Positions 15,740-30,440 of a stretch of 64,000 nt of DNA are shown piece by piece. The stretch is from Jatrophihabitans telluris. Its GTDB lineage: Bacteria > Actinomycetota > Actinomycetes > Mycobacteriales > Jatrophihabitantaceae. Position 1 is the first letter of the stretch; the number at the start of each line of letters is the position of its first letter. The notes under the pieces are model-generated. The model was not told the DNA's origin, did not search any database, and was given only the letters and a program-made list of their open reading frames with translations. The stretch is from contig NZ_CP097332.1 of the NCBI RefSeq assembly GCF_023516435.1, forward strand, positions 1,612,001-1,676,000, given 5' to 3'. A program made the position numbers and the translations under genes.

Positions 15740-15753
15740 CTACCCACGGGTAG
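15740..15753. promoter_or_regulatory. 14-bp palindrome upstream of ecm (TetR-type operator candidate)
   Basis: CTACCC-AC-GGGTAG, perfect 6-bp arms with a 2-bp centre, 22 bases before the ecm ATG and over the -35 region of its probable promoter (weak -10 CATCAT at 15763-15768, 7 bases before the ATG). Same YTACYSRYSRGTAR layout as sites near ccr, the aldehyde dehydrogenase operon and 30427. Confidence 0.55.
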
Positions 15754-15775: not shown

Positions 15776-17782
15776 ATGGCCGACGTGCAGCGGGACAAAC
15801 CCTGGGTGATGCGGACCTACGCCGGCCATTCCAGTCCGGCCGAATCCAACGCGCTCTACCGGCGCAATCTGGCCAAGGGCCAGACGGGTCTGTCCGTCGC
15901 CTTCGACCTGCCCACCCAGACCGGGTACGACCCGGACGCGGAACTGGCGCGGGGGGAGGTGGGCAAGGTGGGCGTCCCGATCGCGCATATCGGTGATCTG
16001 CGGGCGCTCTTCGAAGGGATCCCGCTGGAGCAGATGAACACGTCGATGACGATCAACGCCCCGGCGATGTGGCTGCTCGCGTTGTATCTCGTCGTCGCGG
16101 AGGAACACGCGCACGCCGCCGGCCTCGATCCCGCCGAGGTCCGCGGCAGGCTCGCCGGTACCACTCAGAACGACATCGTGAAGGAGTACCTGTCCCGAGG
16201 GACCTACGTCTTCCCACCCGCCCCGTCGCTGCGGCTGATCACGGACATGATCGCCTACACCGTCGCCGAGGTGCCCAAGTGGAACCCGATCAACATCTGC
16301 AGCTATCACCTGCAGGAAGCGGGGGCCACGCCCGTGCAGGAGCTGGCGTTCGCGCTGTGTACGGCGATCGCGGTGCTCGACTCGGTCCGCGAGAGCGGGC
16401 AGGTGCCGCCCGATCGGTTCGGCGAGGTGGTCGCCCGGATCTCCTTCTTCGTGAATGCGGGGGTTCGCTTCGTCGAAGAAATGTGCAAGATGCGGGCGTT
16501 CGTGCAGTTGTGGGATGAGATCACCGCCGAGCGTTACGGGGTGAGCGACGCCACGCAGCGCCGGTTCCGCTACGGCGTGCAGGTCAACTCGCTCGGCCTG
16601 ACCGAGGCGCAGCCGGAGAACAACGTCACCCGGATCCTGCTCGAGATGCTGGCCGTGACCCTGTCCCGCGACGCCCGGGCCAGAGCGGTGCAGCTGCCGG
16701 CCTGGAACGAGGCGCTGGGACTGCCCCGGCCGTGGGACCAGCAGTGGTCGTTGCGCATGCAGCAGGTGCTCGCCTTCGAAACCGACCTGCTCGAGTACGG
16801 CGACCTGTTCACCGGCTCGCCGGTCGTGCAGGCCAAGGTCGACGAGCTGACCTCCGGCGCGCGGGCGGAGATCGCCCGAATCCTCGACCTCGGTGGGGCC
16901 GTCGCCGCGGTGGAATCGGGATACTTGAAGTCGGCGCTGGTCAGCTCGCTCGCCCAACGGCGTCGGCGGATGGAGTCCGGGGAGGACGTGGTCGTCGGCG
17001 TGAACCGTTTCCTGGAGACCGAAGCGAACCCGCTGACCGCGGACCTGGACGCCGCCATCCTCACGGTCGAGCCGGGAGTGGAGGCCGCGGCCGTCACGGC
17101 CCTCACGCACTGGCGGGCCGAGCGTGATCAGATCGAGGCCGACGCCGCGCTGGCCGAGTTGATCAAGGTTGCCGCTACGGCGGACAACCTGATGACGGCG
17201 ACGCTGCGTTGCGCGCGCGCCGGAGTCACCACCGGCGAGTGGGCCACCGCCCTGCGCTCGGTGTTCGGGGAGTACCGGGCGCCGACCGGGGTCGGGTCGG
17301 CATCGGCCGGCTCGTTCGACGATGCCTTCGACGTCCTTCGCCGCCGAGTGGCCCAGACCGGAGCAGAACTCGGCGCGCCGCTGAAGTTCCTGCTCGGCAA
17401 GCCTGGTCTGGACGGGCACTCGAACGGCGCCGAGCAGATCGCGGTCCGGGCCCGCGACGCCGGGTTCGAGGTGGTCTATTCGGGCATCCGGCTGACCCCG
17501 GCGCAGATCGTCGCCTCAGCGGTCGAGGAGGACGTCGATGTCATCGGACTGTCGGTGTTGTCGGGCTCGCACCTGTCGGTCGTGCCCGAGGTCCTCGCCG
17601 GCTTGCGCGAGGCCGGACTGGACGACGTACCCGTGATCGTCGGCGGGATCGTGCCGGACTCCGACGCCGAGCGGTTGCGTGCGGCAGGCGTCGCCCGCGT
17701 CTTCACGCCCAAGGACTTCCAGATGAGCACGGTTCTCCACGGCGTGGTGGACGCGATTCGCGAGGCGCACGATCTGAGCTGA
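15776..17782 (+). CDS. ecm: Ethylmalonyl-CoA mutase (MeaA-type B12 mutase)
   Basis: Adenosylcobalamin-dependent rearrangement of (2R)-ethylmalonyl-CoA to (2S)-methylsuccinyl-CoA in the ethylmalonyl-CoA pathway. 668 residues in one chain: N-terminal mutase TIM barrel (about 1-520; starts KPWVMRTYAGHSS, GQTGLSVAFDLPTQTGYDPD) and a C-terminal B12-binding domain with LDGHSNG, lower-axial-ligand His548. The N-terminal sequence is the MeaA/Ecm type, clearly different from the alpha/beta methylmalonyl-CoA mutase and from isobutyryl-CoA mutase. Ccr, epimerase, MeaB and the adenosyltransferase are all in the window. No ribosome-binding site; a weak -10 gives a probably leaderless mRNA under the palindrome at 15740. 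Confidence 0.9.
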   Translation: MADVQRDKPWVMRTYAGHSSPAESNALYRRNLAKGQTGLSVAFDLPTQTGYDPDAELARGEVGKVGVPIAHIGDLRALFEGIPLEQMNTSMTINAPAMWLLALYLVVAEEHAHAAGLDPAEVRGRLAGTTQNDIVKEYLSRGTYVFPPAPSLRLITDMIAYTVAEVPKWNPINICSYHLQEAGATPVQELAFALCTAIAVLDSVRESGQVPPDRFGEVVARISFFVNAGVRFVEEMCKMRAFVQLWDEITAERYGVSDATQRRFRYGVQVNSLGLTEAQPENNVTRILLEMLAVTLSRDARARAVQLPAWNEALGLPRPWDQQWSLRMQQVLAFETDLLEYGDLFTGSPVVQAKVDELTSGARAEIARILDLGGAVAAVESGYLKSALVSSLAQRRRRMESGEDVVVGVNRFLETEANPLTADLDAAILTVEPGVEAAAVTALTHWRAERDQIEADAALAELIKVAATADNLMTATLRCARAGVTTGEWATALRSVFGEYRAPTGVGSASAGSFDDAFDVLRRRVAQTGAELGAPLKFLLGKPGLDGHSNGAEQIAVRARDAGFEVVYSGIRLTPAQIVASAVEEDVDVIGLSVLSGSHLSVVPEVLAGLREAGLDDVPVIVGGIVPDSDAERLRAAGVARVFTPKDFQMSTVLHGVVDAIREAHDLS

Positions 17783-17798: not shown

Positions 17799-18458
17799 GT
17801 GCGTCTGGTCATTGCTCGCTGCTCGGTCGATTACATCGGGCGACTGACCGCCCATCTGCCCATGGCGCCGCGGCTGCTGATGGTCAAGAACGACGGGTCC
17901 GTCCTCGTCCACGCCGATGGTGGTTCCTACAAGCCGCTCAACTGGATGTCGCCGCCGTGCAGGCTGGTCGAGGCCGATGGCCAGTGGACGGTGACCAACA
18001 AGGCCGGTGAGCAGCTGGTGATCACGCTCGAGGACGTGCTGCACGATTCCAGTCACGAACTCGGCATCGATCCGGGCCTGGTCAAGGACGGGGTCGAAGC
18101 CCACCTGCAGGTACTGCTGGCCGAACACATCGAGACCCTGGGCGACGGGTACCGCCTGGTTCGCCGGGAGTACCCCACCGCGATCGGCCCGGTGGACATC
18201 CTGGCCCGCGATCCGGCGGGGTCGGCGGTCGCCGTGGAGATCAAGCGTCGGGGCGAGATCGACGGTGTCGAGCAGCTGACCCGCTACCTGGAACTGCTCA
18301 ACCGGGATCCGCTCCTGGCCCCGGTTCGCGGCGTGTTCGCCGCTCAGGAGATCAAGCCGCAGGCCCGAACGCTGGCTCAGGACCGGGGGATCGAGTGCCT
18401 GGTGCTGGACTACAACGCCATGCGCGGCCTCGACAACTCCGCCGACCGGCTGTTCTGA
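17799..18458 (+). CDS. nucS: Mismatch-specific endonuclease NucS (EndoMS)
   Basis: 219-residue endonuclease that cuts both strands at G-T, G-G and T-T mismatches and carries the non-canonical mismatch repair of actinobacteria lacking MutS/MutL. N-terminal dimerisation domain about 1-105 ([33 protein letters not shown]); C-terminal PD-(D/E)xK nuclease with Asp133 (PVDILARD), Glu147 and Lys149 (AVEIKRR). The C-terminus (SADRLF) ends in a short hydrophobic tail as in clamp-binding NucS proteins. Length and order fit Rv1321. Confidence 0.95.
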
Positions 18459-18487
18459 GCCGCGGCACGGTGGCACTTTCCTTCGGG

Positions 18488-18507
18488 GCTACTCGTCAGT
18501 AACCTCG
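18488..18507 (+). promoter_or_regulatory. Operator/-10 module of the aldehyde dehydrogenase operon
   Basis: GCTACTCGTCAGTAACCTCG: a 14-bp palindrome-like core (18489-18502) overlaps the -10 TAACCT (18500-18505), which ends 6 bases before the ATG at 18512. The same arrangement, differing at 2 bases, occurs in front of ccr on the other strand. A repressor bound here would cover the -10 of a leaderless promoter. Confidence 0.6.
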
Positions 18508-18511
18508 GGCT

Positions 18512-20083
18512 ATGACTGCGGTGTCGTCGCCTTCCAGCCCGCCCGAATCGACCGCCCCGGCTCGGCCAGCCGGTCGCGAGGACGGCACCTTCGAGTCGGT
18601 CAACCCGGCCACCGGCGCGTCGCTGGGCCGATATGCCGTCGCCGATTCGGCCGAGGTCGACGACGTCGTGGCCCGGGCCAGGGACGGGGCCGTCTGGTGG
18701 CAGTCGCTGGGGGAGCCCGGGCGGCGAACGATTCTCCGACGGTGGCGTGCCGAACTGGTGGCCAGGTCCGACGAACTGGCGCGCCTGATTCACCTCGAGA
18801 ACGGCAAGACGATGGCCGACGCGGTCATCGAGGTCAGCATCGCGATCGCCCACCTGGACTGGGCCGCCCGGCACGCGCGCACGGTTCTCGGCAAGCGCCG
18901 TGTCAATCCAGGCGTCCTCGCCCCCAACCACGCAGCAACCGTGGAGTACCTGCCGTTCGGGGTCGTCGGCGTCATCGGTCCCTGGAACTACCCGGTGCAC
19001 ACGCCGATGGGTTCGATCTCCTATGCCCTTGCGGCCGGCAACGCGGTGGTCTTCAAGCCGAGCGAGTACACCCCGGGGATCGGGCAGTGGCTGGTCGATT
19101 CCTTCGCGCCGTTGGTCGAGGATCGCGCGGTGTTCGTCCTGGTCACCGGACTCGGCGCGACCGGGGCCGCGCTGTGCCGGGCCGGCATCGACAAGCTGGC
19201 CTTCACCGGTTCGGCCCGCACCGGCAAGCTGGTGATGGCGGCCTGTGCCGAGCATCTCACCCCCTGCCTGGTGGAGTGTGGCGGCAAGGATCCGATGATC
19301 GTGGCGGCCGACGCGAACCTCGACCTCGCGGTGGACCAAGCGCTCTGGGGTGCGATGTCCAACGGTGGTCAGACCTGCGCAGGCGTCGAGCGCGTCTACG
19401 TCGAGGCAGCGGTCTACGCCGACTTCGTCGAACGGGTGGCCGTGCGAGCTCGTCAACTCCGATCCGGCGGTGCCGGTGCCGGTGCCGGTGCCGGTGGCGG
19501 TGGCGCACACGATCATGTCCCGGACTACGGCCCGATCACGATGCCGGGCCAGCTCGAGGTCATCGCTCGGCACATCGATGCCGCCCTGGCTGACGGTGGG
19601 CGCGCGGTGGTCGGCGGCCCGAACTCGGTGCGCCCTCCGTACGTGGACCCGGTGGTGCTCGTGGACGTGCCGGCCGATTCGATCGCGGTCACCGAGGAGA
19701 CGTTCGGACCCACCGTCGTAGTGAGCCAGGTCGCCGATCTGGACGAGGCCGTACGACGGGCCAACTCCACGACCTACGGGCTCGGGGCTTCGGTCTTCAG
19801 CCGGCGCCAGGGCAGACAGGTCGCAGACCGGCTCGACGCGGGCATGGTGAGCATCAACTCCGTACTGACCTACGCCTCGATTCCGGGCCTGCCGTGGGGT
19901 GGCAGCAAGGACTCCGGCTTCGGGCGCATCCACGGCCCGGACGGGCTGCGGGAGTTCGCGCGTTCGCGAGCCGTCACGCGGGAGCGCTTCCCGATCCCGC
20001 TCAAGGTCACGAGTTTTGCCCGCGGCGAGAAGGCTATCGGGCAGTTACGGCAACTGGTTCGAGCCCGGTGGGGCCACCGCTGA
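18512..20083 (+). CDS. Aldehyde dehydrogenase family protein (succinate-semialdehyde dehydrogenase-like)
   Basis: NAD(P)-dependent oxidation of an aldehyde to the acid; 523 residues. WNYP (about 162-165) and the Rossmann region FTGSARTGKLV are present, with general-base Glu255 (LVECGGKDP) and nucleophile Cys289 (GGQTCAGVERVYVE). The closest remembered relatives are actinobacterial GabD2/betaine-aldehyde-type enzymes; substrate not certain. Residues about 320-333 are a Gly/Ala run (GGAGAGAGAGGGG) encoded by six GGTGCC/GGTGGC hexamers, where relatives have a short loop. First gene of a probable operon with the dehydrogenase and lyase downstream. Confidence 0.85.
   Translation: MTAVSSPSSPPESTAPARPAGREDGTFESVNPATGASLGRYAVADSAEVDDVVARARDGAVWWQSLGEPGRRTILRRWRAELVARSDELARLIHLENGKTMADAVIEVSIAIAHLDWAARHARTVLGKRRVNPGVLAPNHAATVEYLPFGVVGVIGPWNYPVHTPMGSISYALAAGNAVVFKPSEYTPGIGQWLVDSFAPLVEDRAVFVLVTGLGATGAALCRAGIDKLAFTGSARTGKLVMAACAEHLTPCLVECGGKDPMIVAADANLDLAVDQALWGAMSNGGQTCAGVERVYVEAAVYADFVERVAVRARQLRSGGAGAGAGAGGGGAHDHVPDYGPITMPGQLEVIARHIDAALADGGRAVVGGPNSVRPPYVDPVVLVDVPADSIAVTEETFGPTVVVSQVADLDEAVRRANSTTYGLGASVFSRRQGRQVADRLDAGMVSINSVLTYASIPGLPWGGSKDSGFGRIHGPDGLREFARSRAVTRERFPIPLKVTSFARGEKAIGQLRQLVRARWGHR
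19469..19504 (+). repeat. Hexanucleotide repeat inside the aldehyde dehydrogenase gene
   Basis: Four GGTGCC units followed by two GGTGGC units, all in frame, encoding a GAGAGAGAGGGG-like loop before the conserved GPIT segment. Copy-number change would alter loop length without shifting the frame. Confidence 0.85.
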
Positions 20084-20188
20084 GACCGTGTGACTAGTAC
20101 CCCACCGAACGGCGTGCCTCGAGTCGGCCGGTTACCGTCAGCTCGGAGCGTGACGCAACTGTCCCGGTCAGGAAGGGTGATCTCGGCG

Positions 20189-21961
20189 ATGACGCGAGAG
20201 TTCAAGCGAGTCGGTGTGGTCGGGCTCGGCACCATGGGCGCCGGGATCGTCGAGGTGTTCGCCCGTCAAGGCCTTCAGGTCGTCGCCGTCGACCGCGACG
20301 AGGAGGCCGTCACCCGCGGCCGGGGACATCTGCAGACCTCGACCGGTCGGGCCGTGGCCCGCGGCAAGCTCACCGAGCAGGATGCGGCCACCCTGGTCGA
20401 TCGGGTCAGCTTCAACACCGAACTCAAGGCAATGGCTGATGTCGACCTCGTCGTCGAGGCCGTGCCGGAAAACCTCGATCTGAAAAGGTCGATCTTCGCC
20501 GCGCTGGACGAGATATGTCCGCCCGAGACGATCCTGGCCACCAACACCTCGTCCTTGTCGGTCACCGAGATCGCCGTCGCGACGGGGCGTCCGGGCAAGG
20601 TCGTCGGGCTGCACTTCTTCAATCCCGCGCCGGTGATGAAGCTCGTCGAGATCGTCCGCAGCGTGGTCACCGAGCCCGACGTCGTCGCCGACATCGAAGC
20701 GTTCGCCGCTGCGCTCGGCAAGACGGACGTGACCATCGGCGATCGGGCCGGGTTCATCGCCAACGCCCTGCTGTTCGGCTATCTCAACCACGCCGCGGCA
20801 ATGTACGAATCCCACTACGCCAGCCGCGAGGACATCGACGCGTCGATGAAGCTCGGTTGCGGGTTGCCCATGGGTCCACTGGCCTTGCTCGACCTGATCG
20901 GTCTGGACACCGCGTACGAGATCCTCGACACGATGTACAAGCAATCGCGCGACCGGTTGCATGCACCGACCCCGATCTTCAAGCAGATGATCACCGCGGG
21001 CCTGCTCGGCCGTAAGACGGGCCGCGGCTTCTACAGCTACGAGAAGGCCGACTCGCCCGTCGTGATCGCCGATCCGCAGACACCGAGCAGCGAACCGCTG
21101 TCCGGCGGGCGAACGGTCGACTCGGTCGGGGTGGTCGGCTCTGGCACCATGGCGACCGGCATCGTCGAGGTGCTGGCCAAGGCGGGTCTGGACGTGCACT
21201 ACGTCGCCCGGGGCGCGGACAAGGTGGCCAGGGTCCGCAACGCCGTCGAGCGATCGACTGCGAAAGCCGTTGAGCGCGGCAAGATGTCGCCTGCCGATCG
21301 CGACGGGGCATTGAGCCACATCAGCGGTTCGAGCGAGCTCGCCGATCTCGCTCAGGTCGACCTGGTCGTCGAGGCCGTGGTCGAGGATCTGTCGGTGAAG
21401 CGGCTGCTGTTTGCCGAGCTCGATGCGGTGTGCAAGCCCGGCGCCGTTCTGGCCACCACGACGTCCTCGCTGCCGGTCATCGAGTGCGCCGCGGCCACCA
21501 GCCGTCCGGGCGAGGTCATCGGAATGCACTTCTTCAACCCGGCAGCCGTCATGAAGCTGGTCGAGGTCGTCAGCACGGTGGCCACCGAGGCCGAGGTGGA
21601 GACCACCGTGCTGCAGTTGACCGCAAGGATCGGCAAGCACGCCGTCCGGTGCGGGGACCGGGCCGGTTTCATCGTCAACGCCTTGCTGTTTCCGTACCTC
21701 AACGACGCGGTGCGCATGCTGGAGGCGCACTACGCCACCAGTGAGGACATCGACTCGGCCATGAAGGTCGGCTGCGGCTACCCGATGGGCCCGTTCGAGC
21801 TTCTGGACGTCGTGGGCCTGGACGTCTCACTGGCCATTCAGCGGGTGCTCTACCTGGAGTTCCGCGAGCCGGGCTTCGCCCCCGCGCCGTTGCTGGAGCA
21901 TCTCGTCACGGCCGGCCGGTTGGGGCGCAAGACCGGCAAGGGCTTCCGCGAATACGCTTGA
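20189..21961 (+). CDS. Fused tandem 3-hydroxyacyl-CoA dehydrogenase (3-hydroxybutyryl-CoA dehydrogenase type)
   Basis: 590 residues made of two complete dehydrogenase units of about 290 each. Unit 1: Rossmann GVVGLGTMGAG near the N-terminus, NTSSLSVTEIA, GLHFFNPAPVMKLVE (catalytic His), GFIANALLFGYLN. Unit 2 (from about 308): GVVGSGTMATG, TTSSLPVIECA, GMHFFNPAAVMKLVE, GFIVNALLFPYLN. Both keep the catalytic His-Glu pair, so both may be active. Likely reaction: (S)-3-hydroxybutyryl-CoA to/from acetoacetyl-CoA. The ATG at 20189 follows GGAAGGG; the longer frame from 20090 has no family similarity. The lyase gene follows after 3 bases. Confidence 0.9.
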   Translation: MTREFKRVGVVGLGTMGAGIVEVFARQGLQVVAVDRDEEAVTRGRGHLQTSTGRAVARGKLTEQDAATLVDRVSFNTELKAMADVDLVVEAVPENLDLKRSIFAALDEICPPETILATNTSSLSVTEIAVATGRPGKVVGLHFFNPAPVMKLVEIVRSVVTEPDVVADIEAFAAALGKTDVTIGDRAGFIANALLFGYLNHAAAMYESHYASREDIDASMKLGCGLPMGPLALLDLIGLDTAYEILDTMYKQSRDRLHAPTPIFKQMITAGLLGRKTGRGFYSYEKADSPVVIADPQTPSSEPLSGGRTVDSVGVVGSGTMATGIVEVLAKAGLDVHYVARGADKVARVRNAVERSTAKAVERGKMSPADRDGALSHISGSSELADLAQVDLVVEAVVEDLSVKRLLFAELDAVCKPGAVLATTTSSLPVIECAAATSRPGEVIGMHFFNPAAVMKLVEVVSTVATEAEVETTVLQLTARIGKHAVRCGDRAGFIVNALLFPYLNDAVRMLEAHYATSEDIDSAMKVGCGYPMGPFELLDVVGLDVSLAIQRVLYLEFREPGFAPAPLLEHLVTAGRLGRKTGKGFREYA

Positions 21962-21964
21962 GTC

Positions 21965-22897
21965 ATGTCCGCACGACAACTGCCTGATCAGATCGGCTGG
22001 GACGGGTTACCCGAGCGGGTGACCATCTGTGAGGTCGGTCCCCGCGACGGCTTGCAGAACGAGTCCGGCGTCGTCGACCTCGCGGTGAAGCTGGAGTTCC
22101 TCGATCGGCTGGCCGACGCTGGTCACACCCTGATCGAGGCCACCAGCTTCGTGCACCCCGCCTGGGTCCCGCAGCTGGCCGATGCCCAAGAGCTGCTGGC
22201 CAAACTCGATCGGCGTCCCGGTGTTCGATACCCCGTCCTGGTTCCCAACGCGACCGGTCTGGACCGTGCTCTGGCGGCCGGCGTCGAGCAGATCGCGATC
22301 TTCGGCAGCGCTACCGAGACCTTCGCCCGCAAGAACCTGAACCGGTCCCGGAGCGAGTCCGTGGCCATGTTCGCGCCCGTCGTGAGCCGGGCTCGCGCGG
22401 AGGGACTGGCCGTGCGGGCTTACCTGTCGATGTGTTTCGGCGATCCGTGGGAGGGCCGGGTGCCACTTCGGCAGGTAGCCGACGCTGCCGGGGAACTGAT
22501 GGCGCTGGGGTGCACCGAGCTCAGCGTGGGTGACACCATCGGGGTCGCGACACCGGGGCAGGTCCGTGCCCTGCTGGCGATGCTGTCCGGGGACGGGATC
22601 GATCTCGACCAGGTGGCGGTCCACTTCCACGACACCTACGGCCAAGCGCTGGCCAACACGCTGGCCGCGTTGCAATGCGGTGTGCACATCGTCGACGCGT
22701 CGGCCGGCGGCCTGGGTGGCTGCCCGTACGCCGAGAGCGCGACCGGCAACCTGGCGACCGAGGATCTCCTCTGGCAACTCGACGGTCTGGGCGTGCAGAC
22801 GGGTGTCGACCTGGACAAGCTGGTCAGCACCAGCGTCTGGATGGCCGAACGCCTGGGGCGCCCGAGCCCGTCGCGCGTCGTGCAGGCCTTGGGCTGA
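21965..22897 (+). CDS. Hydroxymethylglutaryl-CoA lyase-like enzyme
   Basis: 310-residue DRE-TIM metallolyase. EVGPRDGLQNE (about 21-31) carries the metal/catalytic residues, SVGDTIGVATPGQV is the barrel motif with the second Asp, HFHDTYGQAL gives the metal-binding His pair, and the G-loop GGLGGCPYA holds catalytic Cys253. Cleaves HMG-CoA to acetoacetate and acetyl-CoA, the last step of leucine degradation; related 3-hydroxy-3-methylacyl-CoA substrates cannot be excluded. It starts 3 bases after the fused dehydrogenase, so the two are co-translated. Confidence 0.9.
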   Translation: MSARQLPDQIGWDGLPERVTICEVGPRDGLQNESGVVDLAVKLEFLDRLADAGHTLIEATSFVHPAWVPQLADAQELLAKLDRRPGVRYPVLVPNATGLDRALAAGVEQIAIFGSATETFARKNLNRSRSESVAMFAPVVSRARAEGLAVRAYLSMCFGDPWEGRVPLRQVADAAGELMALGCTELSVGDTIGVATPGQVRALLAMLSGDGIDLDQVAVHFHDTYGQALANTLAALQCGVHIVDASAGGLGGCPYAESATGNLATEDLLWQLDGLGVQTGVDLDKLVSTSVWMAERLGRPSPSRVVQALG

Positions 22898-25501: not shown

Positions 25502-26845
25502 TCAGGCGCCCCGGAAGCGATTGATTGCCTGCAGGTGGCGGGCCCGGAACTCGTGGTCGAGCACTCCGAGCCCTTCGGACGCGGCCAGGCAGAGCACGCC
25601 GACCTTGCCCTGATGCAGGTTGCGATGGACGTCGTAGGCCGCCTGACCGGTCTCGGCGAGCGGGTAGACCCTCGATACGGTCGGGTGGATCGCGCCTTTC
25701 GCGACGAGCCGGTTCGCCTCCCATGACTCCTTGTAGTTGGCGAAGTGGGAACCGACGATTCGCTTGAGGTTCATCCAGAGGTAGCGATTGTCGTACTCGT
25801 GCCAGAAGCCCGAGGTCGAGGCGCACGTCACGATGGTGCCGCCGCGTTTGGCCACGTAGACCGAAGCCCCGAAGGTCTCGCGCCCCGGATGCTCGAACAC
25901 GATGTCCGGGTCCTCGCCTCCGGTCAGTTCCCGGATCTTGGCGCCCAGTCGCTTCCACTCCCGCGGATCCTGGGTGTTGTTCTCGGACCAGAAGCGGTAA
26001 CCCTCCGCGCTGCGGTCGATGATGAGTTCGGCTCCCATCCGGCGGCACAGCTCCGCTTTCTCGGGCGAGGACACCACACAGACCGGGATCGCGCCGCCGT
26101 TGAGGGCGAACTGGGTCGCATAGCCCCCCAGGCCACCGGATGCTCCCCAGATCAGCACGACGTCGCCCTGCTTCATCCCGGCGCCGTTGTGGCTGACCAG
26201 CTGGCGGTATGCGGTCGAGTTCACCAGGCCGGGGGAGGCCGCCTCCTCCCACGTCAGGTGCTCGGGCTTGGGCATCAGCTGATTCGACTTCACCAGAGCC
26301 AGTTCGGCCAGGCCGCCGAAGTTCGTCTCGAATCCCCAGATGCGCTGCTGCGGATCCATCATCGTGTCGTCGTGTCCTTGCGGATCCTCCAGTTCGACCG
26401 AGAGGCAGTGCGCCACGACCCGGTCACCGACCCGCCACCTGGTGACCCCCGGGCCGACCGCCAGCACCACGCCGGACAGGTCCGAACCCACGACGTGATA
26501 AGGCCGATCGTGTTTCTGGGCCAGGCTGGAGGACTTGCCGTAGCGCTGCAGGAAACTGAAGGTCGACACCGGTTCGAAGATCGAGGTCCATACCGTGTTG
26601 TAGTTGATCGCGCTGGCCATCACCGCGATGAGGGCCTCACCCGGGCCGATCTCGGGAGTCGGTACCGGTTGCAGGTGCAGCGACTTTCGCGGGTCCTTGT
26701 CCTTGGTGTCCAGGCCGGCGAACATGTCCACCTCATCGGCGCGGACGACGACGCCCTGATAGCGGTCGGGCACCCCTACCGCGGCGACGGCCGCGGGCTC
26801 GTTCGAAGCGATGGCAGCGCGGATCTGGTCGGCGAAATCGGCCAC
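25502..26845 (-). CDS. ccrA: Crotonyl-CoA carboxylase/reductase
   Basis: NADPH-dependent reductive carboxylation of crotonyl-CoA to (2S)-ethylmalonyl-CoA, the key step of the ethylmalonyl-CoA pathway and a supplier of polyketide extender units. 447 residues, the same length I recall for Streptomyces Ccr. MDR fold: KDPRKSLHL, MASAINYNTVWTSIFEP, HVVGSDLSGVV, then the NADPH-binding WGASGGLGGYATQFAL and the CO2-site segment HPGRETFGASVYV; ends LQAINRFRGA. The GTG at 26845 has AGAGGAG 8 bases upstream; the GTG at 26881 is less likely. It is transcribed from a leader of about 80 bases with the operator module at 26933. Confidence 0.95.
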   Translation of the reverse strand: MADFADQIRAAIASNEPAAVAAVGVPDRYQGVVVRADEVDMFAGLDTKDKDPRKSLHLQPVPTPEIGPGEALIAVMASAINYNTVWTSIFEPVSTFSFLQRYGKSSSLAQKHDRPYHVVGSDLSGVVLAVGPGVTRWRVGDRVVAHCLSVELEDPQGHDDTMMDPQQRIWGFETNFGGLAELALVKSNQLMPKPEHLTWEEAASPGLVNSTAYRQLVSHNGAGMKQGDVVLIWGASGGLGGYATQFALNGGAIPVCVVSSPEKAELCRRMGAELIIDRSAEGYRFWSENNTQDPREWKRLGAKIRELTGGEDPDIVFEHPGRETFGASVYVAKRGGTIVTCASTSGFWHEYDNRYLWMNLKRIVGSHFANYKESWEANRLVAKGAIHPTVSRVYPLAETGQAAYDVHRNLHQGKVGVLCLAASEGLGVLDHEFRARHLQAINRFRGA

Positions 26846-26932
26846 GATGGCGGGCTCCTCTACAGGCTCTGGCGCGGGCACGGCGTCCCGCCGGAAACGC
26901 GGATGGTCATGAGCGACGAGCGGATGTTGCGA

Positions 26933-26952
26933 CGAGGTTACTGATCAGTAGC
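26933..26952 (-). promoter_or_regulatory. Operator/-10 module of ccr
   Basis: On the minus strand GCTACTGATCAGTAACCTCG: a perfect 12-bp palindrome (TACTGATCAGTA, 26939-26950) fused to the -10 TAACCT (plus-strand positions 26935-26940). It matches the module at 18488-18507 at 18 of 20 positions. It lies about 90 bases upstream of the ccr start codon. Confidence 0.6.
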
Positions 26953-30426: not shown

Positions 30427-30440
30427 TTACTCACGAGTAA
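30427..30440. promoter_or_regulatory. 14-bp palindrome between glbO and the S53 peptidase gene
   Basis: TTACTC-AC-GAGTAA, perfect 6-bp arms, directly continued by TAACCC (30438-30443), which would be a plus-strand -10 as in the ccr and aldehyde dehydrogenase modules. A second possible promoter for the peptidase is TTGACA (30460-30465) with TACGGA (30482-30487). Confidence 0.5.

Follow-up and report, generated by a model that had tools for sequence, protein, structure and literature searches.

In a 64,000-nucleotide stretch of the Jatrophihabitans telluris genome (positions 1612001-1676000 of one 4.19-Mb contig, here called the window), the same 20-base module stands in front of ccr, the gene for crotonyl-CoA carboxylase/reductase, and in front of an operon that begins with an aldehyde dehydrogenase (ALDH) gene. 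The dyad at its core recurs before acyl-CoA and fatty-acid genes across the genome and before the gene of a TetR protein resembling FasR. We consider it probable that the module serves as operator for an acyl-CoA/fatty-acid regulon spread over the genome, and that a FasR-type TetR protein binds it as a repressor until long-chain acyl-CoA releases the protein.

A conserved operator at promoters of acyl-CoA genes

Both 20-mers stand where a preliminary description of this DNA had put them and differ only at its two n positions, and the same module does precede the second unit, the ALDH operon. They are the only exact matches in the 4.19-Mb genome and, with up to three mismatches allowed, the only copies in the window, with none in 100 shuffles. 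The ccr dyad TACTGATCAGTA is a perfect 12-bp palindrome and the ALDH dyad TACTCGTCAGTA is palindromic in its arms only; both continue into TAACCT. The ATG of the ALDH gene (18512) lies 7 nt past TAACCT, so a leaderless ALDH transcript is predicted; when 18400-18560 was scanned with a promoter consensus, no sigma-70-like site appeared. The two units had been called unlinked, which they are not: they lie 8.4 kb apart in a common cluster with mutase, MeaB, glyoxalase-family (epimerase-like) and thiolase genes. Two further dyads occur in the window, at 15741-15752 and 30428-30439, and with a score matrix built from 158 ccr-locus sites (below) there are four window sites scoring at least 16, where 60 simulations gave 0.03 on average. 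The window features are:

26939..26950, minus strand: operator dyad TACTGATCAGTA before ccr; matrix score 22.2
26935..26940, minus strand: predicted -10 hexamer TAACCT fused to the ccr dyad; TANNNT in 77 of 79 relatives
25502..26881, minus strand: ccr, crotonyl-CoA carboxylase/reductase (602 bits with TIGR01751, whose cut-off is 378.6); the start is uncertain and may be the GTG at 26846
18490..18501, plus strand: operator dyad TACTCGTCAGTA before the ALDH operon; matrix score 20.5
18500..18505, plus strand: predicted -10 hexamer TAACCT before ALDH
18512..20083, plus strand: aldehyde dehydrogenase (PF00171, E 3.7e-119)
20162..21961, plus strand: two-domain 3-hydroxyacyl/3-hydroxybutyryl-CoA dehydrogenase; longest open reading frame from 20090
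21965..22897, plus strand: 3-hydroxy-3-methylglutaryl-CoA (HMG-CoA) lyase-like (NF004283, 385 bits against a cut-off of 246)
15741..15752, plus strand: third dyad TACCCACGGGTA; mutase start 35 bp downstream
15776..17782, plus strand: acyl-CoA mutase (PF01642 and PF02310)
30428..30439, plus strand: fourth dyad TACTCACGAGTA, a strong site

The best NCBIfam model for the ALDH is that of succinic semialdehyde dehydrogenase, with a score below the model's cut-off, and the mutase reaches 511 bits against the methylmalonyl-CoA mutase equivalog, below its cut-off of 876; presumably it is an ethylmalonyl-CoA mutase (MeaA/Ecm). The fourth dyad lies 94 bp before a kumamolisin-type S53 protease gene (identified by Pfam) and 71 bp upstream of a divergent open reading frame that by eye resembles truncated haemoglobin; neither neighbour obviously fits the regulon.

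The module at ccr is conserved. A search of genome contigs with Ccr confirmed at least 588 relatives, from which the best 80 loci, those closest in Ccr, were kept; the best-matching named loci (87-79% identical) belong to Pseudonocardiales, Jatrophihabitans and Planosporangium, with records very near the window possibly excluded. In the stretch from 500 bp upstream to 40 bp downstream of the match start, the dyad TAC[CT]N4[AG]GTA is present in 79 of these 80 loci (the exception is L116), and 77 of the 79 have a T four bases past the dyad, giving a TANNNT fused to it. Throughout the 1,504,416 bases of the 80 loci the dyad occurs 158 times and the reversed pattern 12 times, with 65, 30, 28, 13 and 9 occurrences for the other five half-site letter orders. 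Open reading frames beside the other dyads in these loci match the 3-hydroxyacyl-CoA dehydrogenase, thiolase, epimerase-like protein and ALDH of the window, and some of the dyads adjoin a mutase about 34% identical to that of the window.

Placement of the sites in the J. telluris genome was judged with a rough codon-composition gene caller. There are 46 TACYNNNNRGTA sites, of which 24 are intergenic, 9 lie no more than 90 bp from a called 5′ end and 13 are coding; three of the last (1440915, 2032701 and 3337186) on inspection precede the fasR-like, fabG1 and CitE-like genes, so that about 36 of the 46 are promoter-placed (33 by the caller and 3 by hand). The first 15 of the 84 sites of a control pattern, ACTYNNNNRAGT, are all coding. 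Sixteen sites precede 15 acyl-CoA or fatty-acid enzyme units, encoding acyl-CoA dehydrogenases of three types (AidB-like, FadE5-like with two sites, and one more), three AMP-binding ligases, two thiolases, EtfB, an EtfD-like FeS protein, FabG1, a CitE/HpcH lyase, the mutase, the ALDH operon and Ccr. Three others precede the genes for AceE, an MlaF-like (lipid-type) ABC ATPase and the FasR-like protein, for an annotated total of 19 of 46. Several of these identities do not reach the curated cut-offs of NCBIfam; EtfD, FadE5 and MeaA are used here as names for presumed likenesses. The remaining 27 sites are coding or stand before genes whose connection to the regulon is not apparent, including one that by eye is epimerase-like and those for an S53 protease, a glycosyltransferase, an IlvD-like dehydratase and an alpha/beta hydrolase; the genes near 133968, 500831 and 30428 (the last in window numbering) do not fit the pathway. 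At the first of these (G000:C1:133968-133979, locus L039) there is a perfect palindrome equal to the ccr dyad, before the gene of a putative secreted protein with no Pfam match.

A similar picture is seen in another genus of the family (G013), where TACYNNNNRGTAAC has 12 matches against 4 for the control, at 10 loci. Seven of the 10 precede the same kinds of genes (EtfB, EtfD-like, FadE5-like, another acyl-CoA dehydrogenase, ABC ATPase, AceE-like and Ccr) and three have no clear link; these genes were mostly named by eye, with Pfam checks for the EtfD-like protein and one dehydrogenase only.

A FasR-like protein as candidate regulator

The preliminary description was right that the window lacks a candidate regulator gene: the genome has 37 PF00440 matches, one of them under cut-off, and none falls inside. 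The candidate, L017 (genome 1440230-1440874), lies 171 kb before the window and has a TetR_N domain (PF00440, E 2.6e-15). It is the only one of the 37 TetR genes with an exact dyad nearby, in the interval between it and a divergent gene that by eye is alpha/beta-hydrolase-like, and the best matrix score there is 15.8, against at most 11.6 near the others. Compared with solved TetR structures, L017 matches 6o6p with an E value of 3.6e-58 (residues 8-207) and 6o6n with 8.7e-56, both of which we presume to be the FasR structures described in PMC7382501, and it shares an identical SKPVLYQHF stretch with 6o6p. DUF3107, DUF3152, ThiF-rhodanese, MiaE-like and DEAD helicase genes, five in all, are present beside it and may correspond to the gene neighbourhood of FasR in the reference genome.

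The dyad is also found before FasR-like genes of relatives. Among 41 genomes searched, and with L017 included, it lies upstream of 17 of 30 such genes and is absent from 12 (L149 was unplaced); within the genus, L017 again included, it lies upstream of 8 of 9. A wider draw of 108 genomes of the class yielded a FasR-like match in 97, with the dyad upstream in 13 of 28 loci; eight of these 13 dyads have the TACYNAAAAGTA form, and all eight are from one genus, g45. In that genus, loci L193, L195-L197, L200-L202 and L207 have a conserved TACYNAAAAGTACGATGG before the FasR-like gene that ends at the likely start codon and whose arms agree with the dyad, while its centre does not.

The promoters at which FasR itself acts can be compared with these sites. 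PMC7382501 describes FasR as an activator of fas-acpS that works through three inverted repeats and comes off the DNA in response to acyl-CoA of C16 or longer; it has been crystallised with a 25-mer of DNA. An 18-base pattern from that 25-mer, searched with up to two mismatches in 12 chosen genomes, was found in five of the 12, at six places, and its reversed control matched twice. L276-L279 precede a FAS-I-like gene (L277 by Pfam FAS_AT_central, the others by eye) and were taken as mycobacterium-like because of the pattern match; L280 and L281 do not precede one. Each of the four mycobacterium-like fas promoters has three near-copies of the dyad, scoring 10.6-15.0, which agrees with the number of inverted repeats that PMC7382501 reports for FasR, and three or more hits of at least 10.5 within 130 bp were seen in 0 of 300 simulations of L277. 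Their outer half-sites, GTTACT and GGGTAAC (GAGTAAC in one), are those seen in the J. telluris genome. A further, stronger dyad lies about 170-270 bp from the triple repeat at L276:1763 (16.3) and L279:1245 (20.8).

Sign of control and alternative readers of the operator

The sequence itself shows the operator with its conservation and its placement at promoters, the set of genes, the overlap with TANNNT at ccr and the dyad before the fasR-like gene; which protein binds, whether it represses and what ligand it senses we infer. A dimer of the FasR-type TetR would bind TACYNNNNRGTA; at ccr and at the operon of ALDH, 3-hydroxybutyryl-CoA dehydrogenase and HMG-CoA lyase the last two bases of the operator also belong to the predicted -10 box, so that the bound dimer should keep RNA polymerase out. 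Accumulating long-chain acyl-CoA would make it leave the operator, switching on together the acyl-CoA ligases, acyl-CoA dehydrogenases, thiolases, electron-transfer genes and crotonyl-CoA/ethylmalonyl-CoA enzymes.

Several observations weigh against this reading, and some of them favour its rivals. Published FasR activates fas-acpS (PMC7382501), so that repression would mean a change of sign, and the fusion of dyad and TAACCT proposed in the preliminary description, while present at both units and as TANNNT in nearly all ccr relatives, is not general: among the 19 annotated sites of this genome the dyad enters a TANNNT in 8, ccr and ALDH included, and not in 11. By type of neighbour, the overlap in relatives is seen at 0 of 22 mutase, 8 of 19 thiolase, 2 of 14 3-hydroxyacyl-CoA dehydrogenase, 2 of 13 epimerase and 1 of 4 ALDH sites; the merged module thus marks ccr and not the whole regulon. 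A FasR-like protein might then activate these promoters, as at mycobacterial fas, but we regard this as decidedly unlikely because the dyads are in the position of a repressor, overlapping TANNNT at ccr in 77 of 79 loci and lying 11 nt before the predicted start at ALDH. The number of sites in the genome is a further difficulty for our main reading, as the 46 TACYNNNNRGTA sites are equalled by 46 of the reversed pattern; the counts are 8 and 7 for TACTNNNNAGTA and 6 and 0 for TACTNNNNAGTAAC. With equal counts the short patterns show no excess, and the signal is in the placement of the sites. If the score threshold is relaxed to 11, letter-shuffled versions of the window yield 2-6 hits, similar to the 4 found in the window itself. 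These equalities speak for a chance likeness of the two promoters, an explanation that is scarcely credible given the absence of the 20-mer from all 100 shuffles, the dyad in 79 of 80 relatives, its conservation in several genera and the four window sites of at least 16 against a simulated mean of 0.03. The wider draw beyond the 80 closest loci also counts against it. A Ccr match at E < 1e-120 is present in 55 of the 108 genomes of the class, and of the 50 whose promoters were examined, best copy only (G047, G068, G087, G095 and G110 were left out), 23 score at least 13 and 27 do not; random pieces from these loci reach 13 in 4.75%, some of the pieces including ccr promoters. In the eight genomes of g45 (7-10 Mb) no such site is closer than 348 bp to ccr. 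The ccr module is thus common but not universal. The dedicated crotonyl-CoA/ethylmalonyl-CoA regulon of the preliminary description, read by a CcrR-like TetR, is very improbable. Three ethylmalonyl-CoA-type units of the window do carry the dyad, and the genome scan found sites at such units and at one tetR gene, but the dyad also precedes ligase, dehydrogenase, thiolase, electron-transfer flavoprotein, fabG1, aceE and ABC-ATPase genes, and its occurrence before beta-oxidation, electron-transfer and fatty-acid genes across the genome makes the regulon wider than that pathway.

Other points bear on FasR as the reader. L017 scores 258.5 bits against the mycobacterial FasR model NF053731, whose cut-off is 330, which makes it a relative and not a member of that equivalog, and other TetRs with a similar recognition helix exist. 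No FasR orthologue was found at E < 1e-30 in 11 of the 108 class genomes; four of these bear ccr (G045, G085, G097 and G098, drafts of 120-380 contigs, with only 25-32% identical TetR paralogues listed), and three of the four (G085, G097, G098) keep a strong ccr dyad. Their fasR gene may be lost or hidden in an assembly gap, and the operator may have a second reader. A strong ccr operator is found in 20 of 46 genomes with FasR and 3 of 4 without, showing no association, although with FasR in 97 of 108 genomes a test of presence against absence has little power. The operator and regulon might be real and their reader another regulator, be it a TetR paralogue, a BkaR-like protein or a non-TetR protein, which we think unlikely. 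In favour of this, operators persist in the three FasR-less drafts, this genome has a TetR, L010, with the similar recognition helix SKPVVYEHF, paralogues of 25-34% identity are listed in many relatives, and GTTACTNNNNAGTAAC accommodates the BkaR core GTTA(N)T(N4)A(N)TAAC (PMC3920632). Paralogues were nonetheless rejected as regulators, since the 11 upstream stretches scanned (L010 and ten paralogues from FasR-less genomes) are all without the dyad, with no site above 8.0. A BkaR-type operator was likewise rejected, a strict BkaR-type palindrome being found at none of the 37 TetR loci and the C/G pair being almost invariant at ccr loci, with 158 sites where no alternative pair has more than 7, and the mycobacterium-like fas promoters have the same half-sites as the operator.

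Other published motifs were set aside as well: the Saccharopolyspora PccD sequence, as tabulated in PMC10933834, is unlike the dyad, the motif and consensus reported for AcrT and MadR differ from it, and the unrelated motif reported for Corynebacterium glutamicum FasR (PMC10933834) was for that reason not used.

Significance and relation to known regulators

Among the papers listed in literature searches, no title or abstract beginning names FasR or another actinobacterial TetR as controlling ccr or this operator, and novelty in print is uncertain. We suggest tentatively, as a possibility somewhat short of even, that FasR in many actinobacteria other than mycobacteria is an acyl-CoA-sensing master repressor of fatty-acid breakdown and the ethylmalonyl-CoA pathway, acting through a single operator that is merged with the -10 box at ccr, and that mycobacteria turned the protein and its half-sites into an activator of synthesis. 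If the FasR-type regulon is real, ethylmalonyl-CoA carbon assimilation and beta-oxidation would share one sensor across many actinobacteria. Ethylmalonyl-CoA and methylmalonyl-CoA are building blocks for the polyketide producers among them. The proposal would supply a regulon that can be put to the test and a means of influencing extender-unit supply, and would raise the question of which other genes FasR-type proteins govern.

The closest comparison is with mycobacterial FasR (Rv3208), to which L017 can be aligned over nearly its full length and with which the system shares the half-sites GTTACY/RGTAAC at fas-like promoters and a concern with acyl-CoA metabolism. Mycobacterial FasR differs in having FAS-I synthesis as its target and activation as its mode, whereas the genes here are mainly those of degradation and the ethylmalonyl-CoA pathway, and the ccr operator overlaps a predicted -10 box. 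BkaR (Rv2506) and PccD, the latter reported as similar to BkaR, are also TetR repressors of acyl-CoA catabolism, and the BkaR core GTTA(N)T(N4)A(N)TAAC is of related form; its visible shift-positive sites, however, read GTTAA and not GTTAC (PMC3920632). Their targets differ from those described here, being branched-chain genes for BkaR and propionyl-CoA genes for PccD. CcrR of Methylobacterium is a TetR regulator of ccr, narrow in its range and alphaproteobacterial. Fatty-acid degradation regulons of the FadR, PsrA and FadP type are governed by repressors of fad genes that acyl-CoA releases; compared by description, the mode that we propose is like theirs, and the set of genes here adds ccr and the mutase.
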